NCBI RefSeq assembly: GCF_012184425.1
Contig: NZ_VTOW01000005.1
Location: 248,001-312,000 of the forward strand
Direction of reading: 5' to 3'
Length of the DNA stretch: 64,000 bases
DNA from: Candidatus Manganitrophus noduliformans
GTDB taxonomy: Bacteria; Nitrospirota; Nitrospiria; SBBL01; Manganitrophaceae
Below, piece after piece: positions 29,376 through 40,782 of this stretch. The translations under genes were made by a program, and so were the position numbers. The notes beneath the pieces were generated by a model. That model was not told where the DNA came from. It searched no databases and saw only the letters and a program-made list of their open reading frames with translations. Each line of letters opens with the position of its first letter. The first letter of the stretch is position 1.

Positions 29376-29759
29376 ATGATTCCGAGAGTGCCCGTCGAAA
29401 GAGTCATGTGCGAGAAGCTCCTCACCCTCGATCAGACGGAATCGGCCCTGCGGGCCGCCGGGGTGATGACGGAGCACGGGATCGGCTCCGTCCTGGTCTC
29501 TCGTGACGGAGAGATCATCGGCATCGTCACAGAAAGCGATCTGGTACGAAAGGTCCTTGGACAAGGGATCGATCCGAAAGGGGTCAAACTCGAAACGATT
29601 ATGAGCTATCCGCCGATTACGATCGATGTAAAGGGGATGCTGGAGCAGGCGTACAAATTGATGGGGGAGAATCAGATCCGCCATTTTGTGGTCACGCGGG
29701 AGGGAGCGCCCTGCGGCATCGTTTCCGCCCGCAGCTTCATGGAGTCGATCTATCCGTGA
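29376..29759 (+). CDS. CBS-domain protein
   Basis: 127 residues from the ATG at 29376, preceded by GGAGAAG. The frame stays open upstream to 29160, but that part is basic and not family-like. Two CBS motifs form one Bateman module (AAGVMTEHGIGSVLVSRDGEIIGIVTESDLVRK and AYKLMGENQIRHFVVTREGAPCGIVSARSFM). Stand-alone CBS proteins bind adenine nucleotides and act as energy or redox sensors for partner proteins. The partner is not evident here. A hairpin terminator at 29849 lies between this gene and the convergent merR-type gene. Confidence 0.88.
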   Translation: MIPRVPVERVMCEKLLTLDQTESALRAAGVMTEHGIGSVLVSRDGEIIGIVTESDLVRKVLGQGIDPKGVKLETIMSYPPITIDVKGMLEQAYKLMGENQIRHFVVTREGAPCGIVSARSFMESIYP

Positions 29760-29903: not shown

Positions 29904-30155
29904 TTATCGCTTGCCGCGTCCGAGATCCTTCATCGTCTTCTCATAGGCGAGCTCGTGATTAAAACCTTCCTTAAGGTACTTCCAAAGGAGCGTAATTTTC
30001 TGGAGATCTTCCTGGGTAAAGAGCCGCAATTCTACGTTGCCGATCGGTTTCAGGCGGGGAGTGATATATCCCATTTCCTCCAGGTAATAAAGCTTGTGGC
30101 GCGGAATGCCGACCTTTCGCAAAATATCCGCTGTCGTGAGTGGAAGCCGCTTCAT
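29904..30155 (-). CDS. MerR-family transcriptional regulator, DNA-binding domain only
   Basis: 83 residues from ATG 30155 (a GTG two codons earlier is possible). It consists of the MerR helix-turn-helix and wing alone (TTADILRKVGIPRHKLYYLEEMGYITPRLK, then LRLFTQEDLQKI). There is no C-terminal effector or metal-binding domain. Small MerR proteins of this kind regulate housekeeping or stress genes in several phyla. Genes controlled are unknown. About 250 bp of non-coding DNA lies upstream before the end of the redoxin gene. Confidence 0.82.
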   Translation of the reverse strand: MKRLPLTTADILRKVGIPRHKLYYLEEMGYITPRLKPIGNVELRLFTQEDLQKITLLWKYLKEGFNHELAYEKTMKDLGRGKR

Positions 30156-30405
30156 CTGCACCGCTGAAGAAGGTTTCTATCTGATTTCTAAAGGTAATGG
30201 CAGACTTAAGATTACCAGAACAACGGAAGCTGTCAAGAAACGCATTTATCTCAAACGTGGCGGAGATCCTTTCTCCAATCGAATGCGAAAGCCTGTACAA
30301 CATTTTTTTGTCGTGCCGATGGAGCGGATAGAAAATTAAAGGAAAAGTTTATCTCTTTCCGAAGAGACTCAATCGATCGGGATTGGAGCTCTCCCTTCAT
30401 CGGTC

Positions 30406-30984
30406 TTATGCGGCATCAGTTTCTCCTCTTGCCTCCGACGGAATCAGAGAGAGTGATTCGATCGCCTTTAAAAAATCCTCTTCCTTGATGGCCGAGAGGT
30501 GGCTCCGGAGGCGGACCGTTCCGGACCGGTCGAAGAGGAGGAGATTGTAGAGGGGGCAGGCCCCTTGTGGGTGGGGGAATCCGAGGATGGTGCCGACCCA
30601 GTCGTTGGGATCGAGGAGGAGGGGAAAGTCGATCTGGTGCGTTTGAAGAATCCGCTCCGGCGTCGTGCGATCTTCTCCCAGTGTTGAGACGGCAAAGATC
30701 TCAAGATGATCGTGACGGGTTTGATAAACCTCTTGAAGCAGGGCGATCCGCTCCTCGCAGGTCGGGCAGAGATTGGTGAGCCAGAGGACCGCCCCTTTTT
30801 TGGGGAAGGTCTTAGAGAGGGTGAACGGCCGGCCGGAGAGATCGCGCAGGGTAAAATCGGGTATCCTCCCTCCAATGACATCCCTTTCTCTGCGCCCCCG
30901 AGGGAGACGCCAGCGGGTCTTGATTACAATCTTCCAGAAGAGTCCCTTCATTTGAGAAAGGATATTCCGCGTGGATCTCCTCAT
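30406..30984 (-). CDS. Redoxin/AhpC-TSA family thiol protein
   Basis: 192 residues of thioredoxin-like fold with GGRIPDFTLRDLSGRPFTLS, the redox motif C73-PT-C76 (LTNLCPTCEERI) and SxxGEDR. The N-terminus is basic with one weak hydrophobic segment and no clear cleavable signal, so location is uncertain. It is the seventh and last gene of the operon that starts with acetate-CoA ligase, and overlaps the Rieske gene by 4 bp (ATGA). CPTC suggests a disulfide reductase or peroxiredoxin-like role. What its partner in the operon is remains inference. Confidence 0.82.
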   Translation of the reverse strand: MRRSTRNILSQMKGLFWKIVIKTRWRLPRGRRERDVIGGRIPDFTLRDLSGRPFTLSKTFPKKGAVLWLTNLCPTCEERIALLQEVYQTRHDHLEIFAVSTLGEDRTTPERILQTHQIDFPLLLDPNDWVGTILGFPHPQGACPLYNLLLFDRSGTVRLRSHLSAIKEEDFLKAIESLSLIPSEARGETDAA

Positions 30985-31298
30985 GGCTCATGCTCCATTT
31001 CGACCCAAATTTCCTCTCCCCGCACTTCAACCGGATAGGTCCGCACCTCCTCCTCCGGATTGGCGAGGCAGCGCCCGGTGGCGACGTCGAACGTATTCCC
31101 ATGCCAGGGGCAGAGCAATTGTCCGTCGATCACCTCTCCCTGTACGAGCGGGGCGGCCCGGTGAGCGCAGAAACGATCGAGGGCATAGAAGCGGCCGTCG
31201 ATATTCATCAGGAGGATCTGTCGCCGCCCCACCTTCACCACCTTTCCCTTCCCCTCGGGGAGATCGGCGGTTTTTGCAATCGGTTGATACGCGGTCAT
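30981..31298 (-). CDS. Rieske [2Fe-2S] ferredoxin-like protein
   Basis: 105 residues consisting of a single Rieske domain. Cluster ligands are C44/H46 (FCAHRAAPL) and C63/H66 (LLCPWHGNTFD). It lacks a membrane anchor and the disulfide cysteines of cytochrome bc1 Rieske proteins, so it is a soluble ferredoxin like those of dioxygenase systems. No oxygenase is nearby. It lies between an acyl carrier protein gene and a redoxin gene, overlapping both by 4 bp, inside the acetate-CoA ligase/PDH operon. A role as electron carrier for this pathway is suggested by position only. Confidence 0.92.
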   Translation of the reverse strand: MTAYQPIAKTADLPEGKGKVVKVGRRQILLMNIDGRFYALDRFCAHRAAPLVQGEVIDGQLLCPWHGNTFDVATGRCLANPEEEVRTYPVEVRGEEIWVEMEHEP

Positions 31299-31564
31299 GT
31301 CGTCTCGTTTTCAATGCGCGATGCCAGATATTCGATCGCGCCGTTCAACGTCGTCAGCTGGGGATAATCCGCCTCAGGAATTTCCACTTCGAATGTCTGA
31401 TGCAGCGCGATCATGATGTTGAGGAGATCCATCGAATCGATGTCGAGCTGCTCCCGGAAATTGAGATCGGGCTTCAGCTGCGTCAGATCGGCCTCCGGCG
31501 CAATTCCGCCGAGCGCTTTGAGAATGATTTCCTTGATTTCTTCTCTCGTTCGTTTCGCAGTCAT
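31295..31564 (-). CDS. Acyl carrier protein
   Basis: 89 residues, all ACP, starting [18 protein letters not shown]. The phosphopantetheine attachment site is Ser44 in [13 protein letters not shown], followed by the usual acidic helix and [18 protein letters not shown]. Start and stop each overlap the neighbours by 4 bp (ATGA): the E2 gene upstream and the Rieske gene downstream. The genes expected around a housekeeping acpP (fabD, fabG, fabF) are absent, so this is a dedicated carrier protein of the acetate-CoA ligase/PDH operon. The longer reading through 32119 in the same frame belongs to the antisense of coding E2 sequence and is not real. Confidence 0.92.
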
Positions 31565-32778
31565 AACCGTCTCGGCCCCTGTAGCAGGCGATCGACGGCG
31601 GCAAGGAAGAGGCCGCCGCGATGGCCGTCGGTGACCCGGTGGTCCCCCGCGAGGCTGGCGGTGATCACCGGCCGCGGGATCACTTTTCCCTCGACCACCC
31701 AGGGGCGCTCGACGATCTTCCCGAATCCGACGATCGCGACCTGCGGGGGGTAGATGATCGGATAGATCCCTTCCACCCCTTGCTCGCCGAGACTGGTGAT
31801 CGTGATCGTCGGATCGGAGAACTCGGAGCTTCGGAGCGACCCGGCCCTCGCCCGTTGAACGAGGTCGCGAAACTGCCGCATCAGGGTATCGAGGTCGAGG
31901 CGGTCGGCATTGTGAAGGGCCGGGGCGACGAGCCCGCCTTGTCGCAGAGAGATTGCGACACCGATATGGATCGCCTCGCTTTGAACGACCTTTCCCTCCT
32001 TCCAGACGGCGTTCAACTCGGGGACCTCGCGCAGGGCGACCGCCACCGCCTTGATCAGCAGGACGCCGTAGAGGAGCCGGTCGGGGACCGAGCGCTTTTG
32101 GTTCTCTTCGGTCAGCCAAGTCATCGCCCGGTGCAGGTCGACCGTGGTCTGAAGATAGTAGTGGGGGATTTCCCGCTTGGAGCGGGCCATCGCCGCCGCG
32201 ATCGCTTGGCGCATCCGGGCGGTCCGATCAAGAGGCGGCAGGCCGAACGTCCGATCGAGAGGCGGCAAGCCGAACGTCCCATCGACGGGGGCTTTCTCCA
32301 CGGCCGGTTTGCCGGCCGCCGCTTGTTCAACGTCTTCCCGGGTAATCGCGCCGCCGGGTCCGGTCCCTTTCACCTTCGTCAGATCAACACCGAGCGACTC
32401 GGCCCGCTTTCGCGCGAGAGGGGAGATCCGAATCCGGCCCGTTTCGGACAATCGGATCGTCGGCGGTATCACGGGGGAGATGATCTTGGGTCGGGGAGGG
32501 ACCGGTCGGGGGATCTCCGTCGAGATCGGCGCCGCAGGCGCACCCGCTTCTCGAATGATCGCCAGCGGTGTGCCGACCGGGACCTCGGTTCCGGTATCGA
32601 CCAAAATCTTTTCGAGGACGCCGTCGGTGAAATTCTCAACTTCGATCACCCCTTTGTCGGTCTCCACCTCGGCGAGGATCTCCCCCTTCTCCACTGGATC
32701 GCCCGGTTTCTTCTTCCACTCCACCAGCGTGGCGGAGAGCATGTCGGCGCCGAGGATCGGCATCAGAAATTCAGCCAT
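31561..32778 (-). CDS. pdhC: Dihydrolipoamide acyltransferase (E2) of a 2-oxoacid dehydrogenase complex
   Basis: 405 residues with an N-terminal lipoyl domain (lipoyl-Lys42 in [11 protein letters not shown]), a linker, and an E1/E3-binding domain (about 118-155, [34 protein letters not shown]). A second linker is followed by the catalytic domain with His380 in GDHRVTDG. It transfers the acyl group from the E1-bound intermediate to CoA. One lipoyl domain is fewer than in some bacterial E2 proteins. The second linker contains an exact-length tandem duplication (see 32222-32275). The start overlaps the E1-beta gene by 8 bp. No E3 gene is in the operon. Confidence 0.92.
32222..32275 (-). repeat. 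27-bp tandem duplication in the E2 linker
   Basis: Two adjacent 27-bp units (32222-32248 and 32249-32275) differ at only two positions. They encode GTFGLPPLD and RTFGLPPLD side by side in the linker between the E3-binding and catalytic domains. The duplication keeps the frame. It looks recent, because even silent positions are nearly identical. Confidence 0.9.
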
Positions 32779-33757
32779 GGCGTTGAACCATCTCCTGAGC
32801 GGTTTTTACGATCGTATTGACCTGCGGCAGCGCCGCCTCTTCCAGATGTTTCGCATAGGGAATCGGGACCTCCGCGCTGCAGACGCGTGCCACCGGACGG
32901 TCGAGATCGTAGAAGGCCCCCTCCATGATCTGGGCGCTGATCTCGGCGGCGAAGCTTCCGGTCCGCCACATTTCATCCACGATGACGGCCCGGTGGGTTT
33001 TTGCCACCGAGGCGAAGATCGTCTCTGTATCGAGGGGGCGCAGCACGCGCAGGTCGAGGACCTCCGCGTCGATCCCGATCGAGGCGAGCCGGCCGGCCGC
33101 TTCGATGCACTTCCAAAGTGAGCCGCCGTAGGTGATGAGGGAGAGGTCGCTTCCCCGCCTTCGGACGGCGGCCTTCTCCAGATCGACCGGGTCGATCGTC
33201 TCGTCGAGCTCCCCCTCCATCGGATAAAGGAAGGCGTGCTCGAAAATGATCACCGGGTCGGGCTCGCGAAACGCGGCGGAGAGAAGCATCCCTTTGGCAT
33301 CGGTCACCGTCGCGGGGGCGAGGACACGGATGCCGGGGACGTGCGCGTACCATCCCTCCAGACTGTGCGAGTGCTGCGCCGCCACTTGACGCCCCGCCCC
33401 GGTCGCCATCCGGATGACGAGGGGAACGCTGAACTGTCCCCCCGACATGTGGCGCAGCGTCGCCGCGTTGTTCACGATCTGATCGAGCGCCAGGAGGTTG
33501 AAGTTGACCGTCATTACCTCGACAATCGGCCGCATTCCGCCGAGGGCGGCGCCGATTCCCGCGCCGACGAAGGTCCCCTCCGAGAGGGGGGTGTCGCGGA
33601 CCCGCTCCGGGCCGAACTCTTCCAACAATCCCTTGCTGCACGCGTAGGCGCCGCCGTATCGGCCGACATCTTCTCCCATCAGGAAGACCCGCCGATCTTT
33701 CTGCATCGCTTCCCGGAGGCCCTCACGGACCGCTTCACGATAGGTTATTTTTTTCAT
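32771..33757 (-). CDS. pdhB: Pyruvate dehydrogenase-type E1 component, beta subunit
   Basis: 328 residues of the transketolase pyrimidine-binding and C-terminal fold. Motifs include [54 protein letters not shown], GVRxxxx-like [18 protein letters not shown], and the C-terminal [20 protein letters not shown]. With E1-alpha it decarboxylates the 2-oxo acid using thiamine diphosphate and passes the acyl group to lipoyl-E2. The gene begins 2 bp after the alpha gene and overlaps E2 by 8 bp. Pyruvate is the most likely substrate; acetoin dehydrogenase is a close alternative. Confidence 0.92.
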
Positions 33758-33759
33758 CT

Positions 33760-34725
33760 TTACCTCGGTGAGGTGACATCCTTCGTCAAATCTTCAACCG
33801 GCTCCCATGGACCGGCTTCGGCAAAGGCGACCGCCTCGGCCACTTCAGTGTCTACGACGGTTTCCATCTTCGCAAGATCCCCCTCGGCGAGCAGCCCCTC
33901 TTTTTGGAGACGCGCGGTGAATGTGACGATCGGGTCTTTTTGTTTCCAAGCCTCGACCTCTCCCTTGTCGCGATAGAGCTCCGGGTCGTACATCGAGTGG
34001 GCGCGGAACCGGTAGGTCCGCGCCTCCAGAAGAAAGGGCCCCCCTCCGACACGGATAAACTCCACCGCGCGCCGCGTCGCCTCTTTGACCGCGAGCAGGT
34101 CCATTCCATCGACCGCGGTATTGGCAATGCCGTACCCTTCCGCTTTCCGGGCGATGTCGGTCTGGGACTGATGCCGATGGAGCGCCGTCCCCATTGCATA
34201 AAGATTGTTCTCGCATATAAAAAGGACCGGCAATCTCCAAAGGGCGGCGAGGTTGAGCGATTCGTGAAACTCCCCCTCGGCGACCGCTCCGTCGCCAAAG
34301 AAACAGGCAGTGATTGCGGATCGTTTCCGCATTTGATCGGCGAGCGCGAGGCCGACGGCGACCGGGAGTCCCTCGCCGACAATGGCATAGCCGCCGTAGA
34401 ACCGCCGGCCGGCGTCGTAGAAATGCATCGAGCCGCCCCGCCCCCGGCTACAGCCGTTTGCTTTCCCGTAGAGTTCCGCCATCAGCGGCCCCATCGTCAT
34501 CCCGCGCGCCAGGGCATGGCCATGCTCCCGGTAGGTCGCGACGACGGCGTCTTCCGCCGTCAGCGCCTGCATGGCGCCGACGGCGACCGCCTCTTCGCCG
34601 ATGTAGAGGTGGAGGAAGCCGCGGATCTTCCCCTTTGTATAAAGCTCGGCCGATTTTTCTTCGAACCGGCGAATCCGAAGCATCTGGTGCAACAGCGCCA
34701 CCGCATGGTCTCGACCGCTATTCAT
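33760..34725 (-). CDS. pdhA: Pyruvate dehydrogenase-type E1 component, alpha subunit
   Basis: 321 residues with a complete thiamine-diphosphate motif ([31 protein letters not shown], shown by GDG...NN). The [11 protein letters not shown] and [10 protein letters not shown] stretches and the E1-alpha loop [15 protein letters not shown] are also present. HSMxDP is the phosphorylation-loop equivalent of PDH E1. The start overlaps the acetate-CoA ligase stop by 4 bp. Acetoin dehydrogenase alpha subunits are similar, but the HSMYDP loop and the acetyl-CoA-related neighbour favour pyruvate. Confidence 0.92.
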
Positions 34726-36494
34726 GACTCCATTCCCTCCAATGTCGATGTATCCCCGATCGGGAGACCCAGCTCCTGTGCCTTCAGTAAGCGCCGCATG
34801 ATTTTCCCGCTGCGGGTTCTTGGGAGCGACGGACGGAAGTCGATCTCCTTCGGCGCCACCGCCGCCCCGAGGCGGGTCCGGGCGAAGGCGAGCAGATCGC
34901 GCCGGAGCGCCTCGGACGGCTCATGTCCGGATTTCAACGAGACAAACGCCTTCACCACCTCCATCGCGACCGGATCGGGTTTTCCGATCACGCCGGCTTC
35001 GGCGACCGCCGGATGCTCCATCAGAACGCTCTCCACCTCAAACGGCCCGATCAGATGTCCCGAGGTCTTGATGACATCGTCGGCCCGGCCGACGAACCAG
35101 AAGGTGCCGTTTTTCTCCCGCTTCGCCAAATCGCCGGTGAGGTACCATCCGCCTGCGAAACATTTTCGATACCGCTCCGGCTCGTTCCAGTAGCCTCGAA
35201 ACATCGACGGCCATCCGGGCCGAAGCGCCAGCTCCCCCTGCACCCCCGGCGCTTCGATGACTGCGATCTCTCCCGTTTCGGTTTTTCCGACGATCGCCGC
35301 CTCGATTCCCGGAAGGGGACGCCCCATCGCGCCGGGATGGATCTCCAGTGCGGCGAAGTTCGCGATCATGATCCCGCCGGTTTCGGTCTGCCACCAGTTG
35401 TCATGGAAGGGGAGGCCGAAAGCCCGCTCTCCCCAGACGACCGCCTCGGGATTGAGCGGCTCGCCGACGCTGGCGAGAAAGCGCAGCGCGCTGAAGTCAT
35501 ATTTGCTGAGCGGTTCCAAACCGATCTTCATCATCATCCGGATCGCCGTCGGCGCGGTGTACCAAACCGTCACCTTTTGGTCTTGTAGAATCCCGTACCA
35601 TCGCTCGGCGTCGAACTCCGCCTCGTCGATAATGCTCGTCACCCCGTTCGTCAGCGGCGCGATGATTCCGTAGGAGGTTCCGGTCACCCAGCCGGGATCG
35701 GCGGTGCACCAGAAGATGTCGTCGGGATGAAGATCGAGCGCCAGCTTCCCGGTGATGTGATGGGCGACGACCGCCTCGTGGACATGGACGGCCCCCTTCG
35801 GCGTTCCGGTCGTTCCGCTGGTGAAGTGAAGCAAGGCGGGATCTTCCGGTTCGGTCGGGCCGATGGTGAAGTCCTCACCCGCCTCCTGCATCAACTGATG
35901 AAAATCGTGGGTGTCGTGAACGTCGGTCGGTTTTCCCTCCTCTCCGACGAGGAGAACCTGTTCGAGTTTGGGGAGCAAGGGGCGAAGACCGGCCACTTTT
36001 TTCCGATAGAGCGCTTCGGTGGTGACGAGAAGCTTTGCCTCGCCGATCGCCATCCGCGCCCGGATCGGCTCGGGGCCGAATGCCGAAAAGAGGGGACAAA
36101 AGACAGAGCGATTTTTAAAAATTCCGAGCGCGGCGACGTAGAGCTCCGGAATCCGGCCGGCCAGAAGATAGACCCGGTCGCCCGGACCGATGCCGAGCCG
36201 CTTGAGGACATTTGCGAACCGATTGGAAAGGTTTTTAAGGTCGGCGTAGGTGAACTCGCGAACCTCTCCCTTCTTTCCGAGCCAACGAAGGGCGGTCTGA
36301 TTCCGTCTCGGTCCATCGGCATGACGATCGACCGCCTCGTGGGCGATGTTCAGTCCCTTCCCCTCGGGCAGGCCGTCCAACTCGCGCCGGGCCGCCTCCC
36401 AGGTGAAAGCGGACTTCGCCGTTTCATAGTCGATGAGATTCGGGGGCGAGCCCGGCCGAGGTCTCTTCAGAATCGGTTCGAGTCTTCCCTCCAT
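34722..36494 (-). CDS. acsA: Acetate-CoA ligase (AMP-forming)
   Basis: 590 residues, the short type without a long N-terminal extension. The AMP-binding motif is [17 protein letters not shown]. It is followed by [16 protein letters not shown], the acetate-pocket residue Trp in [29 protein letters not shown], and the regulatory Lys in [11 protein letters not shown] that is acetylated in Acs enzymes. It activates acetate (or a close short acid) to acyl-CoA. AAGGAAG precedes ATG 36494. This is the first gene of the seven-gene operon, so acetate activation and pyruvate decarboxylation feed acetyl-CoA from one transcript. Confidence 0.92.
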
Positions 36495-36855: not shown

Positions 36856-38148
36856 ATGAGATCCTATGATGCGATGACCAAATCGGAACTGATCAAGGCC
36901 ATCCGATCGCTCGAAAAAAAGCAGGGAAAGACGGCGGAGCAGCAGAAGAAAGCAACGCGGCGCAAGGGGACGGAGGAGGCGTTCGAAGTCCGCGTGCAAG
37001 AGCGGACCGCGGAGCTTGAGACGATCAACCAAGCGCTGCGAAAAGAGATGACGGCGCGCCAGCGGGCGGAGGAGCAGTTTCGCGAGATGATCGAGTCGGC
37101 TCCCGATGCGATTGTGATCGTCAACGATCAAGGGCGGATTCTGCGTGTGAATAGTGAAATGGTAAAAATGTTCGGATATCGACGCGAGGAAATACTTCAA
37201 CAGCCGGTTGAGGTATTGCTTCCGGAGCGCTTTCGAAGGGGGCATATCGGCCATCGGGAGGCCTATGTCATGCATCCGCAAACCCGGCCGATGGGGGTGG
37301 GGCCCGATCTCTTCGGTTTGCGCAAGGGTGGGAGCGAATTTCCGGTTGAGATCCGCTTGAGCCCGATGAAAACCGACGAAGGCATTCTGGTCATCAGCGT
37401 GATTCGGGACATCACCGAGCGTAGAGCGGTGGAAGATTCCCTTCGTCTTCAGAAAAAGCTTCTGGAAGAAAAGGTCCGGGAGATGGATGATTTTGTCCAT
37501 GTCGTCTCTCATGATCTGAAGGAGCCGCTTCGCGGGATCGACGCCTACGCCGGGTTCATCCTCGAAGATTATGCGGACCGTCTGGATGACGAGGGAAAGC
37601 GCTATTTAAATGCGCTTCGGGCTTCCGCATTGCGGATGAATTACCTCATCCGCGACCTGCTCACCCTCGCCTCCATTTCCCGGAAGGGCTCCACCCGTGC
37701 GAGTGTTGACCTTAAGAAAGTCGTCGCCGATGTGCAGCATGATCTGGACTTTGCGATCCAACAGAAGGGAGCCGAAATCCGGGTCGGTTCAAACTTACCG
37801 ACCGTCTACTGCGATCCGACGCAGATCCGCGAGGTGTTCAAGAACCTCCTGTCGAACGCCATCAAGTTCAATGACAAGACTCCCAGTGTGGAAATCTCCT
37901 CCCGAGAGGAGGGAGACTTTCATCACCTCTCGATCAAAGACAACGGGATCGGAATTGAGTCCCGCTACACGGAGCAGATCTTCGGTCTCTTTGAGCGGCT
38001 CCACAATCAGGAAGACTTTGAGGGGACCGGCGCGGGATTGGCGATTTGCAAAAAGATGGTCGAGGGCAACGGCGGGACGATCTGGGTGGAGTCGCAGCCG
38101 GGAGAGGGGAGCACCTTCTTTTTTACTCTTCCGAAGAGAGAGGGGTAG
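36856..38148 (+). CDS. PAS-domain sensor histidine kinase
   Basis: 430 residues, cytoplasmic (no membrane segment). An N-terminal coiled coil (RSLEKKQGKTAEQQKKATRR...ERTAELETINQ) is followed by a PAS/PAC domain (about 75-195; MIESAPDAIVIVNDQGRILRVNSE, then SVIRDITERR). Next come HisKA with phospho-His219 (VVSHDLKEPLRGID) and an HATPase domain (NLLSNAIKFND, DNGIGI, GTGAGLAICKKM). It belongs to the phytochrome-like HDLKEPLR subgroup. No response regulator is adjacent, so the partner is elsewhere. Its position just upstream of katG does not prove a link. Confidence 0.92.
   Translation: MRSYDAMTKSELIKAIRSLEKKQGKTAEQQKKATRRKGTEEAFEVRVQERTAELETINQALRKEMTARQRAEEQFREMIESAPDAIVIVNDQGRILRVNSEMVKMFGYRREEILQQPVEVLLPERFRRGHIGHREAYVMHPQTRPMGVGPDLFGLRKGGSEFPVEIRLSPMKTDEGILVISVIRDITERRAVEDSLRLQKKLLEEKVREMDDFVHVVSHDLKEPLRGIDAYAGFILEDYADRLDDEGKRYLNALRASALRMNYLIRDLLTLASISRKGSTRASVDLKKVVADVQHDLDFAIQQKGAEIRVGSNLPTVYCDPTQIREVFKNLLSNAIKFNDKTPSVEISSREEGDFHHLSIKDNGIGIESRYTEQIFGLFERLHNQEDFEGTGAGLAICKKMVEGNGGTIWVESQPGEGSTFFFTLPKREG

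Positions 38149-38439: not shown

Positions 38440-40782
<2,343 letters not shown>

Follow-up and report, generated by a model that had tools for sequence, protein, structure and literature searches.

A conserved acsA–pyruvate dehydrogenase–acyl carrier protein operon in Candidatus Manganitrophus noduliformans, with a putative acetyl-ACP step

The pyruvate dehydrogenase (PDH) complex is taken to end in acetyl-coenzyme A (acetyl-CoA). Octanoyl-acyl carrier protein (octanoyl-ACP) is the donor for lipoyl assembly, and the mitochondrial ACP of the NDUFAB1 type works in the lipoylation of PDH. In AcpP, the housekeeping ACP, acidic residues of helix II, such as Glu41, touch the enzymes of fatty-acid synthase. 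An operon that unites an acetate–CoA ligase, a PDH and a free ACP is described here. It lies in a stretch of 64,000 nucleotides of Candidatus Manganitrophus noduliformans (contig NZ_VTOW01000005.1, positions 248,001 to 312,000; G000:C5:248001-312000), called the window below. The assembly has 5.17 Mb in 22 contigs.

Seven genes run on the minus strand from 36494 down to 30406:

34722..36494, minus strand: acsA, acetate–CoA ligase, 590 amino acids (aa), first gene of the operon (equivalog NF003313, 919.5 bits, cut-off 729)
33760..34725, minus strand: pdhA, pyruvate dehydrogenase E1 alpha, 321 aa, overlapping acsA by 4 bp (TIGR03182, 456 bits, cut-off 393.85)
32771..33757, minus strand: pdhB, E1 beta, 328 aa, 2 bp after pdhA (NF006667, 409.4 bits, cut-off 321)
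31561..32778, minus strand: E2, dihydrolipoyl acyltransferase, 405 aa (Pfam lipoyl, E3-binding and catalytic domains)
31295..31564, minus strand: dedicated ACP, 89 aa, phosphopantetheine Ser44 in the motif DSMD, last gene of the conserved unit (PF00550, 35.4 bits, cut-off 20.8)
30981..31298, minus strand: soluble Rieske [2Fe-2S] ferredoxin, 105 aa, a local extension of the operon (PF00355, 72.6 bits)
30406..30984, minus strand: ResA/AhpC-TSA-like redoxin with a CPTC motif, 192 aa (PF00578, 50.7 bits)

The overlap between E1 beta and E2 is 8 bp, and those of E2 with ACP, ACP with Rieske and Rieske with redoxin are 4 bp each. An initial annotation, made from the sequence alone, had described this run with its overlaps of 4–8 bp and its 2-bp gap exactly, and had read it as one operon, which is supported. 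It had also noted that E3 (lipoamide dehydrogenase) is absent from the set, and indeed none is present among the seven genes.

The operon resembles a PDH complex with a heterotetrameric E1 (the TIGR03182/NF006667 type) and a single-lipoyl E2. E1 alpha and E1 beta are of the pyruvate type by curated cut-offs, and E2 is placed by its Pfam domains: one lipoyl domain (aa 3–75) with the lipoyl Lys42, an E3-binding domain (aa 116–151) and a catalytic domain (aa 187–404) with His380 and Asp384. It differs from such a complex in that the operon has no E3, and in that acsA ahead of the PDH genes and an ACP gene overlapping E2 behind them are kept across phyla. Moreover, E2 scores too low for all NCBIfam E2 models listed, the best being TIGR01349 (258.8 bits, cut-off 445). 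E1 beta did not reach the E1-beta equivalog NF008854 (384.7 against 454 bits).

The layout of E1 alpha, E1 beta and E2 is shared with the branched-chain and acetoin dehydrogenase operons, which also encode 2-oxoacid dehydrogenases. In contrast to these, E1 alpha here passes the pyruvate dehydrogenase cut-off, AcsA and an ACP are present, and E3 is absent.

The ACP belongs to the PP-binding family and has the invariant Ser, as AcpP does. Unlike AcpP, it falls under the housekeeping equivalog TIGR00517 (45.2 against 70.45 bits), as under every other NCBIfam ACP cut-off listed, and carries Asn at the Glu41 position; at the Glu47 position His is found in most of its relatives. The solved sequence nearest to it is the mitochondrial-type NDUAB1-beta (E = 1.6e-10), and mitochondrial ACP is likewise tied to PDH. 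That tie, however, goes through fatty-acid and lipoyl synthesis and not through an operon shared with E2 and AcsA.

No published description of an acsA–PDH–ACP operon was found in the open-access literature, which mostly excludes subscription papers. The parts are of known kinds, and it is their conserved union with a dedicated ACP that was not found in open-access print.

Conservation of the five-gene unit and its E3

The ACP was searched in 295 genomes of the phylum, with matches of E = 2.3e-24 or better regarded as close. Gene order was read from tblastn; counts of neighbours and alignments, and the overlaps at the 57 measurable loci, came from a codon-score gene caller trained on the core genes. 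Some loci and genomes are the same assemblies (e.g. L095 and L058), and the loci are not all independent.

A close ACP was present in 25 of the 295 genomes, including that of the window. The next match (G284) was at 4.8e-21, followed by a drop to 6.5e-13. All of the 24 other holders, which are Nitrospiria, had the order acsA-E1 alpha-E1 beta-E2-ACP, with an E2/ACP overlap of 4 bp in 22 of them. At the G284 locus no PDH gene was found, and a Rieske-type protein (36% identity) lay about 8 kb off.

Of the 246 class genomes, 49 had an E2 of at least 58% identity, and in the same 49 an ACP lay within about 0.7 kb of it. One genome with an E2 of 40% identity and no close ACP (G236), and six genomes of family f11 with an ACP of 40–44% and no such E2, were set aside in this comparison.

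When one genome per species was scanned, at least 532 confirmed relatives of the ACP were obtained, of which the best 80 were kept. The five genes were complete and in order at 52 of these 80 loci. Another 13 had E2 but at most some of the other genes, and in 11 of these the ACP was 3.4 kb or less from a contig end. The remaining 15 were without E2. One of them, L088, is cut by the contig end, and L190, apparently a further stretch of the same bin, carries the tail of an E2.

The full sets came from at least eight phyla. By their titles and labels they included Nitrospirota, Acidobacteriota, Planctomycetota, Rokubacteria, Deltaproteobacteria (with L120 labelled Myxococcota), Chloroflexota, Actinomycetota, Betaproteobacteria and a Gemmatimonadetes metagenome-assembled genome. 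The recurrence of the first five genes in the same order across phyla is far more than chance. The free ACP that the initial annotation had grouped with the PDH genes is borne out as a member by its presence in the same 49 class genomes and by the full order at 52 of the 80 loci. Conservation of the whole seven-gene order, whose failure that annotation had named as refuting its module, was found for the first five genes only; the Rieske and redoxin genes did not recur across phyla.

In 57 loci where the overlaps could be measured, E2/ACP was exactly 4 bp in 51 and E1 beta/E2 exactly 8 bp in 20.

The ACP also matched 36 plasmid records. Six of these were picked by hand, three of which (H3, H11 and H22) already had an E2 listed under the match, and all six had the five parts in order. 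The holders were Methylocystis, Sinorhizobium fredii, Leisingera, Cupriavidus, Rhodococcus and Azospirillum. In the plasmid copy of Leisingera caerulea, E1 alpha and E1 beta form a single open reading frame (L176, 5854-7851).

The distances of ACP and of E2 between loci were correlated (r = 0.85 over 53 loci; maximum of 999 permutations, 0.27). In a tree of concatenated E1 beta and E2 with 40 rows, the 20 named Nitrospirota rows stood on one side of a branch (support 74/98). The row of the window had a long branch and fell in no starred set. Among the matches listed, the closest named loci were from Candidatus Manganitrophus and Manganitrophaceae, with ACP and Rieske proteins 89–97% identical.

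The missing E3 was looked for in the rest of the genome; its presence there is one half of the other outcome that the initial annotation had named as speaking against its module. A normal E3 was found at G000:C1:76374-77756 (TIGR01350, 560.7 bits, cut-off 408.8). It is adjoined by another E1/E2 set (L081) and, as read from the list of open reading frames, by a LipA gene; the genome gave five strong E1 matches in all (E = 6e-64 or better). All 26 genomes tested (25 operon holders and G183, an operon-less sibling) had an E3 over the cut-off, and by coordinates none of these lay inside the operon. The PDH of the operon thus most likely uses, in trans, an E3 encoded elsewhere. The E3-binding domain of E2 is intact (PF02817, 57.1 bits, cut-off 23.7), and we infer that the genome's own E3 is its partner. 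A five-gene unit acsA-pdhA-pdhB-E2-ACP that borrows its E3 in trans is, in our estimate, very probable.

The dedicated ACP and its possible roles

Identical proteins were merged before residues were counted, leaving 69 distinct E2s and 94 distinct ACPs. In E2, Lys42 was kept in 68 of 69, and both His380 and Asp384 in all 69. The ACP Ser44 was invariant in all 94, comprising 78 ACPs linked to PDH and 16 others. The label 'PDH-linked' was given by exclusion and takes in loci where PDH is cut by a contig end; of the 17 listed loci without PDH, 16 rows entered the comparison. Such conservation rules out the ACP as a chance reading frame.

Two positions separated the groups. Position 49 was Asn in 78 of 78 PDH-linked ACPs and Asp in 16 of 16 others, with Glu in the five solved ACPs of the alignment. 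Position 55 was His in 71 of 78 and Arg in 15 of 16, respectively. We take these positions to be Glu41 and Glu47 of AcpP. As the acidic residues of helix II are contacts of AcpP with fatty-acid synthase, the changes at 49 and 55 fit a private partner, but they may also be a mere trace of common descent.

The window's own genome had one ACP of the operon type at E = 1e-15 and a second, weaker ACP match. Two copies (96% and 91% identity) were seen in one Manganitrophaceae bin (G309:C183:12-278 and G309:C197:14661-14927), one of them followed by a Rieske gene; the bin has about 5% contamination, and the copies are possibly from two strains. ACPs with the same type of motif were also seen in Opitutae with no PDH found, beside a ketoacyl synthase (L161:7756-8994) and beside a flavin amine oxidoreductase (L153:2369-3799).

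We interpreted the unit as an acetyl-supply operon with a borrowed E3, used under stress, in which the dedicated ACP would be the acyl partner. Pyruvate would be decarboxylated by E1 and the lipoyl domain of E2 acetylated. The ordinary E3 of the genome would be recruited through the E3-binding domain and would reoxidize the dihydrolipoyl group. The same acetyl unit could be supplied from acetate by AcsA. The holo-ACP would then accept the acyl group from E2, from AcsA or from both, giving acetyl-ACP beside acetyl-CoA; this is the least certain step. The Rieske and redoxin proteins would not contribute to catalysis by the complex.

Taken as a whole, this account is tentative, and we put it a little short of an even chance. 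The putative acetyl-ACP step by itself is rather more doubtful than that. A still broader proposal, of a widespread class of PDH that hands acetyl to a dedicated ACP, with AcsA feeding the same carrier, as a CoA-sparing route to acetyl-ACP under stress, we consider somewhat unlikely.

Several observations weigh against this account. AcsA is over the cut-off of the acetate–CoA ligase equivalog, which makes CoA its expected acceptor. The active-site His and Asp of E2 are retained as in E2s that use CoA, and no fusion of E2 with ACP was seen among the loci read. The Asn49 signature may be no more than a sign of common descent, given that the ACPs linked to PDH differ from the others at many positions. 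Both E2 and ACP of the operon are absent from three genomes of the window's own genus (G183, G306 and G310), so the operon is dispensable there. As for use under stress, no Pfam family occurred in more than 5 of 127 proteins flanking the operon outside Nitrospirota, these being low raw counts, and strict FNR, sigma-54 and DosR-like boxes were found in 0, 0 and 0 of 61 distinct sequences upstream of acsA.

Other roles of the ACP were considered. It could be a private carrier of octanoyl groups, from which a transferase of the LipM/LplA type would lipoylate the E2 of the operon as its expression rises. The established part of octanoyl-ACP in lipoyl assembly and the similarity to NDUAB1-beta both agree with this, and what keeps it live is that no LipB match was found in the window genome at E = 0.001 while one LplA/LipM-like protein (281 aa) was. 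This pair of findings neither proves nor excludes it. Yet no lipoyl-assembly family appeared among the neighbours scanned, which were part of them, or among the 25 flank families listed. The genome also has other E1/E2 sets but a single ACP of the operon type, beside a second, weaker ACP match. We regard lipoylation as unlikely.

The ACP could instead be a non-catalytic or regulatory subunit, or the carrier of a non-acetyl acyl group, that steers or gates PDH under stress. That it lies close to E2 wherever this E2 occurs in the class (49 genomes), and at 65 of the 80 scanned loci, is in accord with such a role, as is a helix II unlike those of the solved ACPs compared, which fits a private partner. 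An invariant Ser44, on the other hand, goes beyond what a purely structural role would call for. This explanation is slightly less likely than lipoylation.

Alternatively, the operon could be an ordinary auxiliary one for PDH and acetate, whose extra ACP joins the general pool of fatty-acid synthase. In favour of this, genes for ACPs occur widely, the scores of AcsA and E1 exceed curated cut-offs, and the Pfam domains of E2 are the usual ones. Against it, ACP and E2 are each below all the NCBIfam cut-offs listed for their kind, Asn is fixed at the Glu41 position, and no class genome had this E2 without the ACP. We consider a general-pool ACP improbable, more so than a regulatory one.

The Rieske and redoxin genes

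A Rieske gene directly after the ACP was seen only in the window, in L086/L189 and in L088/L190, all of the Manganitrophus type, from the genus or family of the window; L087 ends at the ACP. Neither gene was found beside the operon at loci of other phyla or of Nitrospira, where contigs that end soon after the ACP are uninformative.

In the single-contig sibling G306 the five genes are absent, the Rieske protein is kept at 88% identity, and the downstream flank is syntenic (92–94% next to the operon). About 25 bp of the 3' end of the ACP gene, with its ATGA overlap, are still present. This flank, the kept Rieske gene and the ACP remnant suggest an ACP–Rieske link of long standing in the genus and a loss of the operon in G306. 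In G183, which is also without the operon, a Rieske relative of 69% was found.

The genes that adjoin the remnant in G306 (L187, 5542-9437, against window 30397-31319) encode a tRNA-editing protein, a universal stress protein and cytochrome c; an S30AE protein and a cold-shock protein likewise adjoin it.

Homology to the redoxin stops at residue 58 in G306 (L187) and in L086/L189. L086 has a stop codon in the redoxin before residue 58; it has frameshifts elsewhere too, and sequencing error may add to the damage. Among the loci seen, the redoxin was of full length only in the window. Its matches were ResA-type proteins, and the solved chains nearest to the Rieske protein were dioxygenase ferredoxins.

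Both proteins look like passengers. The initial annotation had counted them as parts of a module in which they would replace E3; neither is a fixed part, as a sibling without the operon retains the Rieske gene and two siblings have a broken redoxin. That they reoxidize dihydrolipoamide instead of E3 would agree with the gene overlaps in the window and with the age of the ACP–Rieske overlap in the genus, but it is rejected as very improbable in view of the normal E3 in this genome and in all 26 tested, the kept E3-binding domain, the Rieske gene that is retained in G306 and has a 69% relative in G183, both of them operon-less, and the broken redoxin. In addition, neither gene was found beside the operon outside Manganitrophus-type loci.

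Neighbouring genes, regulation and significance

In Nitrospira, the recurrent neighbours of the operon (representatives scanned) were Hsp20, a universal stress protein, cytochrome c, a phosphoribosyltransferase and a GNAT-domain fusion of an ADP-forming acyl-CoA synthetase. In many Nitrospira clusters a protein of about 400 aa without a Pfam or NCBIfam match stood beside this synthetase (L068:14501-15703 and relatives). In three Nitrospira genomes (one representative scanned) a pyruvate-kinase-like gene lay between E1 beta and E2.

For the loci outside Nitrospirota, 150 flanking proteins were picked and 127 of them, from 33 of 34 loci (L143 dropped out), entered the scan; left out were long proteins, most of those at contig ends and one that was itself an ACP. 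The most frequent families, in numbers that are suggestive but low, were phosphoribosyltransferase and OsmC (5 each), helix-hairpin-helix and the S30AE hibernation factor (4 each), and BON, Usp, cold-shock, polymerase-beta thumb, PHP, PAS and histidine-kinase ATPase (3 each).

Of five annotated plasmid loci, four had a universal stress protein within 9 kb (Methylocystis, S. fredii, Leisingera and Rhodococcus, not Cupriavidus). The S. fredii locus also had a J-domain protein, CbpM, Hsp20 and FtsH, and the Rhodococcus locus a GAF sensor kinase with a response regulator. These stress-gene neighbours, clearest in Nitrospira and in the plasmid copies, suggest that the operon is used under energy or oxygen stress.

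One further feature was noted upstream of the operon in the window:

36856..38148, plus strand: PAS-domain histidine kinase, divergent, outside the conserved unit, a possible regulator

It is followed at 38446-40782, near the operon start, by a peroxidase-family gene (778 aa). Just beyond the other end of the operon, a small MerR-like helix-turn-helix protein (29904-30161, minus strand) and a pair of CBS domains (about 29376-29759, plus strand) were recognized by eye.

Looser boxes were also counted in the 61 acsA upstreams. FNR boxes numbered 3 (shuffle mean 3.7) and sigma-54 boxes 2 (mean 0.7, maximum 3), with no enrichment. Control of acsA by FNR, sigma-54 or a DosR-like regulator thus had no support from these upstreams. 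An E1-beta/E2 pair of Azospirillum, from this operon or from another, rises with ethylene (PMC11819568).

With its own ACP beside it in all 49 of its holders in the class, and with a spread over many phyla, this PDH variant points to an acyl transfer, so far unstudied, at a junction of central metabolism. If a direct route to acetyl-ACP exists, pyruvate and acetate would be linked to acyl carrier chemistry without CoA. The plasmid copies lie in genera with cultured strains (Sinorhizobium, Cupriavidus, Methylocystis and Rhodococcus), which makes this testable outside the uncultured lineages.

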